Assembly: GCA_030529365.1 (NCBI GenBank)
Contig: JAUMXB010000002.1
Location: 186,001-250,000 of the forward strand
Origin: Cardiobacteriaceae bacterium
Lineage (GTDB): Bacteria; Pseudomonadota; Gammaproteobacteria; Cardiobacteriales; Cardiobacteriaceae
Direction of reading: 5' to 3'
DNA: 64,000 bases
How positions within the stretch are numbered: position 1 is the stretch's first letter; every line of letters begins with the position of its first letter. Under the pieces are notes generated by a model. The model saw only the letters and a list, made by a program, of their open reading frames with translations. It was not told the origin of the DNA and did no database searches. Below, piece after piece: positions 2,951 through 7,547 of this stretch. The position numbers and the translations under genes were made by a program.

Positions 2951-3045
2951 TTGCTTCGAGGCGTAAGAACCTCTACAAAAGGCGGAAAGCTGCCCCCGAC
3001 AGATTGGCGGTTTTTTTGTACCTGCGTGCAAGCGCTTGTTTATGT

Positions 3046-3120
3046 CGGGAGGGCGGAGAATACAAGACCCCGCAAGGGGGAATTATCCCGGCCGTCCTTT
3101 TGCGGTTTCTTAACCTCCCG
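3046..3120 (+). ncRNA. Candidate C4-type antisense RNA upstream of the Rha gene
   Basis: A 75-nt segment is closed by a perfect 7-bp stem, CGGGAGG (3046-3052) with CCTCCCG (3114-3120). It contains a CCCC-GCAA-GGGG tetraloop hairpin (3068-3079). TCCTTTTG at 3095-3102 is perfectly complementary to CAAAAGGA at 3183-3190, the ribosome-binding site of the Rha gene at 3198. Size, position and complementarity match the P1/P7 C4 antisense RNA, which is processed from the antirepressor mRNA leader and blocks its translation. The assignment is by structure and context; no covariance-model search was run. Confidence 0.6.
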
Positions 3121-3128
3121 GCGCCCTA

Positions 3129-3158
3129 TGAGGAGAATCCAATTTTGGACTCTCCTCA
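3129..3158 (+). promoter_or_regulatory. Leader hairpin before the Rha gene
   Basis: TGAGGAGAATCC (3129-3140) pairs with GGACTCTCCTCA (3147-3158), giving a 12-bp stem with one mismatch and a 6-nt loop. There is no U-run, so it is not an ordinary terminator. It lies between the C4-like RNA and the ribosome-binding site of the Rha gene. It may be a processing site or part of the antisense target. Confidence 0.45.
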
Positions 3159-3197: not shown

Positions 3198-3902
3198 ATG
3201 ACAAGCTACAAAGAACCGCTGGTTCGCCTTTCCGGTAACCGCCTGATTACCACCTCTCTTGCCGTCTCTCATCATTTCGGAAAAAAACACGCACATGTTT
3301 TGCGTGACATACAATTACTTGAATGTTCGCCTGAATTTGGTGCGTCGAATTTTCGACTCTCGTCGTACACCACCAGCCAAGGCAAGCAACTGCCCATGTA
3401 TGAAATCACCCGCGACGGCTTTTCCTTCCTCTGCATGGGGTTTACCGGCCGAGCGGCGGCGCAGTGGAAAGAAAAATACATTGCTGCCTTCAACGCTTTG
3501 GAACAGCAGGCACTGCAAGCACCTACCGCGCCATTCCGCCTTGAAGCGCATATGGCCACGCTTGCCCAGGGCATGACGGCTCTGCTTGCGCAAAACCAAC
3601 TGGTGCACCGCTATATCGCGCTCCTCGAAATGAACCAGAAGAGCAAGCGCCGTATCAAGCGCGAAGATGAAGCCATCATCCGCCAGTTGCACGACGAAGG
3701 CATGCGCCAGGCCGATATTGCGCGGCTTTTGCGCATTTCCGCTACCTCAGTCAACCGCATCCTGCACGGGGAATACAAATTTTCCGACAGCCCTGCCGGC
3801 AAGGGCATCAGCGAGTTGCTGGAAGAAATGCTTGCCCGCGAGCAAGCGCAATTGTCCGCAGCGCTTATCACACTGCCGCACGATTCGGAGGTGCGCTCAT
3901 GA
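3198..3902 (+). CDS. Rha family phage regulatory protein with C-terminal helix-turn-helix
   Basis: A 234-residue cytoplasmic protein. The N-terminal 100 residues carry the Rha (pRha) signature: VSHHFGKKHAHVLRDI, then YEITRDGFSFLCMGFTG and AAQWKEKYIAAFNALE. Residues about 150-195 form a helix-turn-helix (IRQLHDEGMRQADIARLL, then SATSVNRIL). Rha proteins are often encoded in immunity loci and can act as antirepressors or block phage growth in particular hosts. The AAAGGAG ribosome-binding site is the predicted target of the C4-like RNA upstream. Its stop overlaps the next gene by 4 nt. It interrupts the head operon, so it is probably an acquired cassette. Confidence 0.75.
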   Translation: MTSYKEPLVRLSGNRLITTSLAVSHHFGKKHAHVLRDIQLLECSPEFGASNFRLSSYTTSQGKQLPMYEITRDGFSFLCMGFTGRAAAQWKEKYIAAFNALEQQALQAPTAPFRLEAHMATLAQGMTALLAQNQLVHRYIALLEMNQKSKRRIKREDEAIIRQLHDEGMRQADIARLLRISATSVNRILHGEYKFSDSPAGKGISELLEEMLAREQAQLSAALITLPHDSEVRS

Positions 3903-4220: not shown

Positions 4221-5678
4221 ATGGCACGAAAAAAATCATCACGGAAACATAAACCTAACAAACCCCTGGCGATGGAAGTGGCGGTTGAGCGCGGCCTTAC
4301 CACCGTCGAAAGCATCGACAAGATTTTGAACGATCGCCTCGGCGGCGACACCAACGCCTATCGCGACTTGCTCACCGATACCACCGTTACCGGATGCTGG
4401 GCGCAGCGGCAAACCGCGCTTGCGAAACTTGAGCGCCAAGTATTGCCGCATGACCCGGACAATCCCGCCGACGTCGAGGCCGCCGAGTTTGTCGAAGCGC
4501 AGCTTGCGCGCGTCAACTTTGACCAAATCCTCAAGGCCATGCACTGGGGCGTGTTTTACGGCTTGGCCGTCGGCGAAATCATGTGGGGCGTCGAAGATGG
4601 CCGCGTGGTGCTCGATCATGTGTTGGTGCGCGACAGAGCCAAATTTAAATACGACGTCGACGGGCAGCTGCTCTACACCGGCAATAATGCTGATGAGGTA
4701 ATGCCGGAGCGCAAGTTTTGGATGTTCTCGGCAGGCGGTGACACAACCGACAACCCCTACGGCTTGGGGCTGGCGCATTTTCTCTACTGGCCGATTTTGT
4801 TCAAAAAACACAACGTCAAATTTTGGTTGATGGGCAACGAGAAGGCGGCAACCTCTATCCCGCACGGCACCTTTGACCCCCGCTCGCCCACCGCCGCCAA
4901 CGACAAGCAACAGCTGCTCGCCGCGCTTTCCGCCATCAAAAATGGCTCGGCCACTGCCACCCCGAACAATACGCTGGTGCAGCTCCTCAAAGGCGAGAGC
5001 GGCACCCAGGATTACGAGACGCTGTGCCGCTACATGGACGAGGGCATCGCCCTGGTGACGCTGGGGCAGGTGATGACCAGCCAGGCGGTGGGCGGGCAGT
5101 ACAAGGCCGAGGTGCAGGACGACGTCAAAGACGACATCATCAAGGCCGATGCCGACCTGCTCTGCGCCTCCTTTAACGCGACGATTGCGACGTGGTTGAC
5201 GGAGTGGAATTTTCCGAGTGCCAAGCCGCCGAAGCTGTGGCTGCTCGCCGAAGAACCAGACGAGAGCGAGGCCAAGGCCGAGATGTACGCCAAGCTCGCC
5301 GTGCTCGGCTACCGCCCGACGCTGGATCATGTGAAAGAAGTATTCGGCGGCGACTGGGAGGTCATACCGCAAGGCGCATTGCCTGCGCCGGAGGATACGC
5401 CGCCTGCCGACTTTGCTGAGGGCGACCCCGAGCCGGAAACCCCGCCCGACAGCATGAGCGAACGCTTGGCACGCGAACTCGCGCCACACAATGACCAATG
5501 GATTGCCCGCATCGCCGATGAACTCGGCCAGTGCGAAACCCTGCTCGAATTCCGCGAGCGTTTGGATGCGCTTGCCGGTGAGTTGTCCATCGACGATTAC
5601 GCGGAGATATTGGCTCGCGCGAGCACCGCCGCGCACTTTGCCGGGCGCGCCGAAGCATCCGATGAGGGACGCGCATGA
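4221..5678 (+). CDS. DUF935 phage portal protein (Mu gp29-like)
   Basis: A 485-residue portal subunit, expected to form the dodecameric ring at the capsid vertex through which DNA is packaged. Family-typical segments are visible: MHWGVFYGLAVGEIMW (about 107-122), VRDRAKFKYD, and LYWPILFKKHNVKFWLMGNE (about 185-204). The C-terminal 100 residues are acidic and proline-rich. The start at 4221 is chosen because GGAG lies upstream and it removes a non-conserved leader from the ATG at 4191. The stop overlaps the start of the F-like gene (ATGA). Transcription probably begins at the motif at 4152. Confidence 0.9.
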   Translation: MARKKSSRKHKPNKPLAMEVAVERGLTTVESIDKILNDRLGGDTNAYRDLLTDTTVTGCWAQRQTALAKLERQVLPHDPDNPADVEAAEFVEAQLARVNFDQILKAMHWGVFYGLAVGEIMWGVEDGRVVLDHVLVRDRAKFKYDVDGQLLYTGNNADEVMPERKFWMFSAGGDTTDNPYGLGLAHFLYWPILFKKHNVKFWLMGNEKAATSIPHGTFDPRSPTAANDKQQLLAALSAIKNGSATATPNNTLVQLLKGESGTQDYETLCRYMDEGIALVTLGQVMTSQAVGGQYKAEVQDDVKDDIIKADADLLCASFNATIATWLTEWNFPSAKPPKLWLLAEEPDESEAKAEMYAKLAVLGYRPTLDHVKEVFGGDWEVIPQGALPAPEDTPPADFAEGDPEPETPPDSMSERLARELAPHNDQWIARIADELGQCETLLEFRERLDALAGELSIDDYAEILARASTAAHFAGRAEASDEGRA

Positions 5679-6928
5679 GCCTTGCCCACCGTCGCCTGCC
5701 GTTTAGCGAGCAAATCCGATTTTTTCGCGGCAAGCTCAATATCCCCACGCAAAGCTACGCCGACATCTACGGCGCGGAGCATGATGCCGCCTTTGTCGTC
5801 GCCGGTATGGCGCGCATGGATATGCTTGCCGACATGCGGCAAGCGGTGGACAAATCCATTGCAGGGGGGATGTCGCTCGCAAAATTCCGCAAAAGTTTTG
5901 ACAGTATCGTTGCGCGCTACGGCTGGCAGTACAACGGCGGCCGTGACTGGCGCAGCCGCATCATCTACGACACCAACCTCTACAGCAGCTATCAGGCGGG
6001 CAGATACGAGCAGCAGCAAAGCATCAAGCATCTGCGTCCTTATTGGGAATATCAGCATCTTGATGGGCAAAAACACCCGCGCCCCGAGCACGAGGCATGG
6101 GACGGGCTGGTACTGCATGCCGATGATCCGTGGTGGCAGACGCATTACCCCATCAATGCCTACGGCTGCAAATGCACCGTCTTTGCCCACAGCGAGCGCA
6201 GCCTTGCGCGCAACGGCCTCAAGGTCGGCAAGGCACCACCTGTCGAGATGCACACCGTGGTTGTCGGTAAAAACAGCGCCAACCCGCGCATGGTTGCCGT
6301 GCCCAAGGGCATTGACCCCGGCTTTGACCGTATCCCAGGCAAAGATCGTGAACGTGCTGCACAAATGCTGCTCGAAAAGGCCAAGGGCGTACCCCCGAAG
6401 ATGGCCAGCACGGCAGTCTCGGCAACGCTCGCTCATGCCCAGGTGCGGCGTCTGCTCAATGCCGAAGTGGCCGAGATGGTGGACACCGTGGCACGCGAAA
6501 AGGTGGCGCGCGGCGTCAACAAGTCGGTGGGCGTCATCCTCCCCGAGATTATCGAGGCGCTCACCGCGCGCGACATGGCACCGGCCACTGCCGTGATCAC
6601 CCTGCGCGACCGCGACATCCTCCACGCCCTGCGCGATGACAAGCACCAGCCGTTGCCGGTGGATTTTTGGCGCAATATCGCAGAGCACATTGCCGCGCCC
6701 GAAGCCGTGCTGCTCATGAAAAACGAAACGCCACCGGTGCTGCTCTATATCTACGACCTGGGCGGCGACAAGGGCAAGATGGCGCTGAAAATGGATTACG
6801 ATCTTGAGGTGAGGACGCCGGAAGGCAAGCGCAAAATCAAGGGAAACATCCTGCGCACCGGCTCAATGCTTTACACACAAGATGAAATTGAAAGCCTGAA
6901 AGGGCATATCGAAATCTGGAAGAAGTAA
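5675..6928 (+). CDS. Mu F-like head morphogenesis protein with C-terminal nuclease-like domain
   Basis: A 417-residue minor head protein. Residues about 115-170 carry the Phage_Mu_F signature: HPRPEHEAWDG, DDPWWQTHYPINAYGCKC, with His and Cys residues suited to metal binding. F-like proteins are ejected or head-assembly proteins bound near the portal. The last 130 residues (from about 285) look like a separate alpha/beta unit with ITLRDRDILHAL and LLYIYDLG. They resemble the PBECR nuclease-like domains often fused to F-like proteins; that part is inference. It overlaps the portal gene by 4 nt. A tRNA-like element on the other strand follows. Confidence 0.85.
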   Translation: MSLAHRRLPFSEQIRFFRGKLNIPTQSYADIYGAEHDAAFVVAGMARMDMLADMRQAVDKSIAGGMSLAKFRKSFDSIVARYGWQYNGGRDWRSRIIYDTNLYSSYQAGRYEQQQSIKHLRPYWEYQHLDGQKHPRPEHEAWDGLVLHADDPWWQTHYPINAYGCKCTVFAHSERSLARNGLKVGKAPPVEMHTVVVGKNSANPRMVAVPKGIDPGFDRIPGKDRERAAQMLLEKAKGVPPKMASTAVSATLAHAQVRRLLNAEVAEMVDTVAREKVARGVNKSVGVILPEIIEALTARDMAPATAVITLRDRDILHALRDDKHQPLPVDFWRNIAEHIAAPEAVLLMKNETPPVLLYIYDLGGDKGKMALKMDYDLEVRTPEGKRKIKGNILRTGSMLYTQDEIESLKGHIEIWKK

Positions 6929-6935
6929 CGGGGGC

Positions 6936-7061
6936 GATACGCCGGGCAGGATTCGAACCTGCACTATACACCAAGGCAGGATGGCGATTTACCCCGTTGT
7001 ATAAACCATCATCCCTTGAGCCTCGCTGCCCTCTCACCTTAATTGGGCCCTTCGGCGTATC
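6936..7061 (-). ncRNA. tRNA-like structured element, 126 nt
   Basis: Read on the minus strand, the ends pair perfectly over 9 bp (GATACGCCG with CGGCGTATC). Next to the 3' end is a canonical T-arm, GCAGG-TTCGAAT-CCTGC. Near the 5' end is a D-arm-like hairpin, GCCC-loop-GGGC with AAGG in the loop. The central 65 nt exceed a normal anticodon plus variable region and form a hairpin closed by GGATG/CATCC. I found no clean anticodon arm, and no CCA follows. A -10-like TATACT ends about 10 nt upstream (7072-7077). It could be a degenerate tRNA, a tRNA mimic or a novel phage RNA. Confidence 0.5.
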
Positions 7062-7088
7062 ACCTGCAAGCAGTATAACGGAAAGCAC

Positions 7089-7547
7089 ATGGCAACACTG
7101 AATATTAACGATCCCCGCATCATCGCCTACCTTGAAGACCTCGCCCGCGCCGGATTCTTGGACAAAGCCGTCTGGAAAACCATTGGTGAGGCACTGCTGC
7201 GCTCAACCAAAAAGCGCTATGCGAAACAGCAGGCGCCGGACGGTACACGCTGGGCGCCGCTCTCGCCCCAATACGCCGCGTGGAAAAAGCGCCACAAAAA
7301 AGGGCGGAAAATCCTGAAGCTGGAAGGGGAAATGCGCAATACCTTGAACTATCAGGCAGGCGATGCCTCAGTAGCGATTGGCTCAGACCGTGAATACTCT
7401 TCCATCCACCAATTCGGCGGGCGCTTTAAAGCGTTTGGCCAGCACAACGCGGTGATGCCTGCCCGTCCGTTTTTGGGGCTGTCTGCCGAGGATGAGCAAG
7501 CCATCTTGGACACCATCGCCGACGCTTTTGAGGCCAATCAGCCCTGA
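7089..7547 (+). CDS. Phage virion morphogenesis protein (Mu G-like)
   Basis: A 152-residue basic protein of the Mu gpG family, involved in joining tails to heads. Family features are the central WAPLSPQYAAWKK, GRKILKLEGEMRNTL, then SIHQFGG and the C-terminal MPARPFLGLS. ATG at 7089 follows the tRNA-like element; the upstream ribosome-binding site GGAAAG is moderate. It is followed 7 nt later by a terminator, so it ends the portal-F-G transcript. Confidence 0.85.
   Translation: MATLNINDPRIIAYLEDLARAGFLDKAVWKTIGEALLRSTKKRYAKQQAPDGTRWAPLSPQYAAWKKRHKKGRKILKLEGEMRNTLNYQAGDASVAIGSDREYSSIHQFGGRFKAFGQHNAVMPARPFLGLSAEDEQAILDTIADAFEANQP

Follow-up and report, generated by a model that had tools for sequence, protein, structure and literature searches.

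The window, a stretch of 64,000 nucleotides from a 2.3-Mb draft genome of a member of the Cardiobacteriaceae, contains a Mu/B3-like head module comprising genes for the portal, gpF, gpG, the protease and the major head protein. An sRNA-Xcc1 RNA (RF02221, 73 bits; positions 3044-3130, plus strand) occupies part of a block between terminase and portal; on one side of it is a gene at 2045-2908, on the other a Rha-like gene at 3198-3902, these gene names being read from the sequence. The gpF and gpG genes are separated by a gap of 160 nt (gpF stop at 6928, gpG start at 7089), and the minus strand of this gap encodes an RNA element whose arms follow the order found in tRNA: acceptor, D, middle and T. 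The features of the locus, in window coordinates, are:

5675-6928, plus strand: Mu gpF-like minor head protein (PHROG 220, E 2e-100), upstream flank of the gap
7089-7547, plus strand: Mu gpG-like tail-completion/Neck1 protein (PHROG 26, E 7e-39), downstream flank of the gap
6933-7064, minus strand: tRNA-like RNA of 132 nt, hereafter the long form
7053-7064, minus strand: closing (acceptor-like) stem, 5' strand, pairing with 6933-6944
6933-6944, minus strand: closing stem, 3' strand, ending 4 nt from the gpF stop codon
7028-7048, minus strand: D-arm, stem GCCC/GGGC with a 13-nt, GG-containing loop AATTAAGGTGAGA, within a 22-nt block that is invariant in three species
6975-7022, minus strand: long hairpin replacing the anticodon arm, with compensatory changes in its stem and an invariant apex TTTATACAACGGGGTAAA at 6988-7005
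6946-6962, minus strand: T-arm GCAGG-TTCGAAT-CCTGC, 1 nt from the closing stem
7072-7077, minus strand: -10 box TATACT, separated by 7 nt from the first base of the stem and at a similar distance in both relatives

A preliminary description of this DNA had placed the RNA opposite two head genes. The RNA is indeed encoded on the strand opposite to gpF and gpG; it lies, however, entirely between the two genes and overlaps neither. The perfect 9-bp stem, the D-arm-like hairpin, the TTCGAAT loop on its 5-bp stem, the -10-like box and the lack of a CCA end were all present as described, and the closing stem reaches 12 bp if one T.G pair is allowed, with 11 bp kept in relatives. The 65-nt middle does lack an anticodon arm, but it is not the unclear region it was taken to be, as it forms the long hairpin with the invariant apex. 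The minimum free energy of the 126-nt core is -51.5 kcal/mol compared with -39 +/- 3.6 for shuffled sequences (z -3.5), and none of 200 shuffles was as low.

Two genomes of the same family (G009 and G011) retain the long form at the 3' end of gpF, with 77-79% identity to the window copy over 130 nt; a search for related loci with gpG as the query found no relative. In comparison with Cardiobacterium valvarum the RNA is 78.5% conserved, against 72.7% for the last 300 nt of gpF and 57% for the first 300 nt of gpG, and the noncoding RNA is the best conserved part of the gpF-gpG stretch. Five blocks of 7-22 nt, which include GGTTCGAATCC as well as the hairpin apex and the D-loop block, are invariant. 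The closing stem keeps all 11 of its pairs in the three sequences, 7 of them having changed on both sides, while across the whole structure these three related sequences display 12 pairs changed on both sides, with 98.2% of the paired cells intact. This covariation was reached by none of 500 shuffles, and all slid registers scored far lower. Non-Watson-Crick cells read on the minus strand comprise 16 G.T and a single A.C, indicating that the minus strand is the selected RNA strand. The earlier proposal that the element is under selection is thus upheld by the compensatory pairs and by conservation exceeding that of the flanking coding sequence, and the suggested comparison with related prophages returned two family-level relatives that display these changes. 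The preliminary description would have abandoned the proposal if phages kept the flanking genes without the RNA and compensatory change were lacking. Phages with gpF and gpG but no RNA do exist; compensatory change, however, is evident in 12 pairs. Structure, conservation, strand and position identify the window element as a real, selected small-RNA gene.

In another phage lineage, an independent 130-nt homologue of the long form occupies the gpF-gpG gap, again antisense, in the phages L275 and L277 (model R1, 44.6 bits, E 2e-10), well above the background of this model on tRNAs, which does not exceed 28 bits. Matches to R1 at 25-28 bits in a class sample were discarded, as those inspected align as ordinary tRNA-like cloverleafs. 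Exact occurrences of the 14-mer TATACAACGGGGTA in viral contigs were likewise attributed to chance, as 57 of 58 had no T-arm after it; the remaining one was C. valvarum.

The gap of C. valvarum, at 427 nt, contains three minus-strand tRNA-like elements in tandem: a divergent long form (R1, 39 bits), a short form of 74 nt and the counterpart of the window copy. A short form is also found in the gap of the Pasteurella phage AFS-2018a, where the closing stem is different yet complementary. A search pattern built from these two short-form sequences matched 81 viral contigs (59 distinct elements with flanks) and 26 genome records, the latter mostly from Pasteurellaceae (Avibacterium, Haemophilus, Gallibacterium, Necropsobacter, Lonepinella and others), together with Neisseria, Cardiobacterium and Pelistega; the elements are 74-88 nt long. 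The genome matches L187, L197 and L206 were set aside as chance. Nearly all short-form loci in which both genes could be placed have the element antisense in the gpF-gpG gap, a position kept in Neisseria phages despite a gpF that is only about 30% identical. Among 33 distinct sequences, each of the 8 closing-stem pairs has changed on both sides, with 96.5% of cells paired, and the covariation score of 0.448 (0.118 for shuffles) was reached by none of 500 shuffles. It should be emphasized that the search pattern itself prescribed the D- and T-arm letters, and their invariance in this alignment is thus by construction.

Variation in these arms was instead drawn from matches to a second model, R2, which found members with other D-arms and with other, still complementary, T-stems. 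Across the forms the T-stems vary yet remain paired throughout, and the T-loop stays TTCGANY; a GG in the D-loop and a T-loop of the type TTCRANY are shared by the window copy and all forms compared with the exception of the variant in L285. The D-arm of the short form could be drawn in two ways, and its pairing is ambiguous. A hairpin UUUCC/GGAAA has its third pair broken in 7 of 11 sequences, while a D-stem CC/GG with GG in the loop holds in all 11, with one UC/GA change, which would favour the tRNA-like arm. Among genomes, R2 matched 22 of 140 in the Haemophilus parainfluenzae family, 9 of 83 in the Neisseria dentiae family, 12 of 201 in a further gammaproteobacterial family and 1 of 268 in the Pelistega family; in an even sample of the class it matched 1 of 369. 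Against the window copy R2 matched the T-arm only, at 7.6 bits. The kinship of the long and short forms is therefore proposed not from a model match beyond the T-arm but from their common slot, strand and arm order and their tandem arrangement in C. valvarum. Judged by these features, the tRNA-elbow RNAs lying antisense in the gpF-gpG gap of beta- and gammaproteobacterial Mu-like phages, which are not in Rfam 15, are best read as one family.

The window copy has a -10 box but no good -35, and no intrinsic terminator was found at it. Most copies of the short form are preceded by TTGATT-N17-TATAGT. In 56 of 65 distinct upstream regions the best pair of boxes includes a -10 with five of six consensus matches, and in 45 of those 56 a 17-nt spacer separates it from a TTGATT-like -35, the -10 mostly lying 4-9 nt before the stem; as a shuffled control was only moderately lower, more weight falls on the fixed geometry. 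C. hominis (L207) has a strong intrinsic terminator directly 3' of the RNA, and in Neisseria copies a 13-bp stem is followed by a T-run. Predicted sigma-70 promoter boxes, with fixed spacing in the short form, are thus conserved, a statement that concerns the boxes and not their activity.

The distribution of the element is patchy. Among 80 phages with a related gpF, a motif test placed the short form in 34, another antisense sequence with a T-arm in 4 and neither in 42, although one of these 42, L285, carries the variant matched by R2; several phages without the RNA have a gpF-gpG gap of 0-3 nt. The further gammaproteobacterial family includes L391, with the order gpF, antisense RNA, gpG, and L398, with a remnant of gpG, while others of its copies are solitary, near integrase or umuC genes. 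Free copies also occur beside hsdR and comM (Pelistega), and another beside a phage primase with Mor and protease genes, the neighbours being named from the sequence and not by domain search. Such copies are sometimes repeated at a spacing of 320-1382 bp. Since about half of the gpF relatives lack the RNA and free copies exist, it is accessory rather than part of the capsid. In L397 (1498-1683, plus strand) a free tRNA-like RNA near a possible integrase gene has an int-alpA RNA (RF02996) 32 nt downstream.

The gap has other contents too. Four phages without the tRNA-like RNA (L298, L300, L307 and L292) have a different structured antisense sequence there, with a TATA-like -10, in several cases a strong terminator, and no Rfam match. 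A third antisense form is present on the minus strand of L313/L101 (phage B3; 4241-4368) and of L282 (3532-3651); changes in its closing stem and arms between two variants look compensatory, and it overlaps the annotated 99-nt B3ORF34. A scan with the B3-like core CCGGGAAATCGCCAG gave about as many matches as a 15-mer is estimated to produce by chance. The gap takes protein cargo as well: between the RNA and gpG, the phages L102, L105, L113, L118, L145, L161 and others encode one or two additional small genes, on either strand.

We propose that a Mu-like prophage carries the window element as an autonomous accessory small-RNA gene, a 'moron', encoding a mimic of the tRNA elbow that is expressed from the prophage, a reading to which we assign a probability of roughly 0.55. 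Transcription by host RNA polymerase would most likely begin at the base of the closing stem, leaving the 5' end base-paired from its first nucleotide and the transcript stable. The RNA is predicted to fold as a tRNA elbow, with the GG of the D-loop and the TTCGAAT T-loop, on a non-standard closing stem; as a hairpin replaces the anticodon arm it could not decode. Expressed in the lysogen, it would act in trans. The Mu-like phages of Pseudomonas carry anti-CRISPR genes in their plasticity region G (PMC4378225), and the element resembles such 'morons' in being an accessory insert that brings its own promoter and in some cases a terminator, and in its patchy occurrence among relatives; it differs in being an RNA rather than a protein gene, and in being antisense. 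The elbow stays constant against a freely varying closing stem and middle arm, which points to an elbow-reading protein as the likely partner. Phage-encoded tRNAs evade tRNA-targeting defences (PMC11555353, PMC10264068), and this, together with the anti-CRISPRs among Mu-like accessory genes, makes a counter-defence decoy plausible. Such a decoy would occupy a host protein that recognizes the elbow, for example a phage defence that attacks tRNA, or an enzyme of tRNA processing. A mimic recognized by tRNA enzymes, one of the possibilities raised in the preliminary description, would still be the best guess. By analogy with these systems we advance the decoy role tentatively, and a search for a consistent defence neighbour or interacting partner found none.

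The main rival explanation is control of the head operon by antisense in cis. It could be argued that minus-strand transcription towards gpF interferes with the late head transcript, or that read-through RNA pairs with it, delaying the late genes in the lysogen. This would be consistent with the antisense orientation of almost every phage copy, abutting the gpF stop codon, and with the unrelated structured antisense sequences, some with terminators, that other Mu-like phages have in the gap. The tRNA-like RNA, however, overlaps neither gpF nor gpG, selection acts on its internal tRNA-like fold, free copies lie away from head genes and several copies terminate before gpF. We consider cis control unlikely, albeit the strongest of the alternatives.

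The remaining explanations fare considerably worse than an accessory RNA acting in trans. The location among head genes in many phages could reflect an RNA for capsid assembly or packaging that is bound by gpF, gpG or the portal, a role the preliminary description had entertained. The close gpF relatives that lack the RNA, several with a gap of 0-3 nt, and the solitary copies beside umuC, hsdR and integrase genes, outside any head operon, speak against it, and a packaging function is highly improbable.

Equally doubtful is a translational tRNA with an altered anticodon arm, whether charged and used or drifting into decay. Some members do come near to true tRNAs: in L333 the acceptor is 7 bp and the T-stem 5 bp, and ARAGORN called the L284 member (4278-4349, minus strand) as tRNA-Stop(tta), making it a candidate UAA-reading or decayed tRNA. 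This suggests that the family descended from a tRNA whose anticodon arm was replaced. The idea that the window copy itself is an unusual tRNA did not withstand scrutiny, however. ARAGORN, one of the tools earlier put forward for this purpose, reported no gene in it, nor did its intron and tmRNA options at the default score; the Rfam tRNA model RF00005 gave 17.1 bits against a cut-off of 29; CCA is absent; and in place of an anticodon arm with a 7-nt loop there is a hairpin of 48 nt whose apex, though conserved, is not an anticodon. An intron-containing tRNA was rejected on the same result, as ARAGORN -i at a lowered score produced only a weak tRNA-Gly-like cloverleaf whose acceptor differs from the conserved stem. 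A duplicated host tRNA was also dismissed, as BLAST against the window's own genome yielded only fragments of 15-22 nt elsewhere. The gap RNAs share with tRNA the arm order, the GG of the D-loop and the TTCGAAT T-loop, and are phage-borne like phage tRNAs. In contrast to tRNA they have a variable hairpin for the anticodon arm, closing stems of 8-13 bp and, in most members, 1-4 nt between the T-arm and the closing stem. Simple decay is excluded by the compensatory changes. They resemble tmRNA in having tRNA-like ends without an anticodon arm but are far shorter, with no tag reading frame apparent, and ARAGORN made no tmRNA call on the window RNA.

It is also very improbable that the element acts as DNA, as an attachment site, a recombination or transposition signal or a repeated mobile element whose palindrome merely resembles a tRNA. 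The repetition of some free copies and the int-alpA RNA next to the L397 copy fit such a view; the promoter boxes at fixed spacing, the replacement of A.C by G.T on one strand and the conservation of the single-stranded tRNA motifs in the D- and T-loops do not.

YrlA RNAs carry a T-arm and mimic tRNA. They are noncoding, 114-130 nt long and arranged in tandem arrays, and in three Cardiobacterium relatives (G004, G009 and G011) tandem YrlA RNAs adjoin TROVE-domain matches. The YrlA loci of relatives score 70-87 bits with RF02553, and their TROVE matches range from weak to curated level. The least likely of all the explanations is that the Ro protein Rsr binds the window RNA as a Y RNA-like ligand, as the arrays in these relatives might suggest: RF02553 did not match it in the window's genome at E values up to 10, the same genome gave no match to TROVE (PF05731), and YrlA, which is Rsr-associated, has a permuted order as read from the sequences (T-arm first, with a closed acceptor), unlike the tRNA order of the window RNA. 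A YrlA or Y RNA identity was therefore rejected. Searches with Rfam 15 over the window RNA and L065, L100, L282, L275, L284, L332, L246, L392 and others returned no match that reached a gathering threshold over the RNA. The open-access literature contained nothing relevant on the RNA, its sequence or small RNAs of Mu-like prophages; subscription papers and most preprints lay outside this scope, and an earlier report is possible.

The trans-acting accessory RNA may be one instance of a broader arrangement. At about even odds, the Mu-like phages of beta- and gammaproteobacteria reserve the antisense gpF-gpG slot for a small structured RNA, the commonest occupants being anticodon-less tRNA mimics that would be mobile among phages and hosts and target, in trans, proteins that recognize tRNA. 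If so, a stable RNA mimicking tRNA is carried by a large group of temperate phages, of which many reside in bacteria of the human and animal upper airway, and goes unseen in standard annotation, being rejected by tRNA finders and lacking an Rfam model. Such an RNA would provide a new handle on how phages deal with tRNA-directed defences or tRNA enzymes, in the form of an RNA 'moron' that is directly testable. This study also illustrates that covariation can uncover antisense RNA genes in operons annotated as purely protein-coding.
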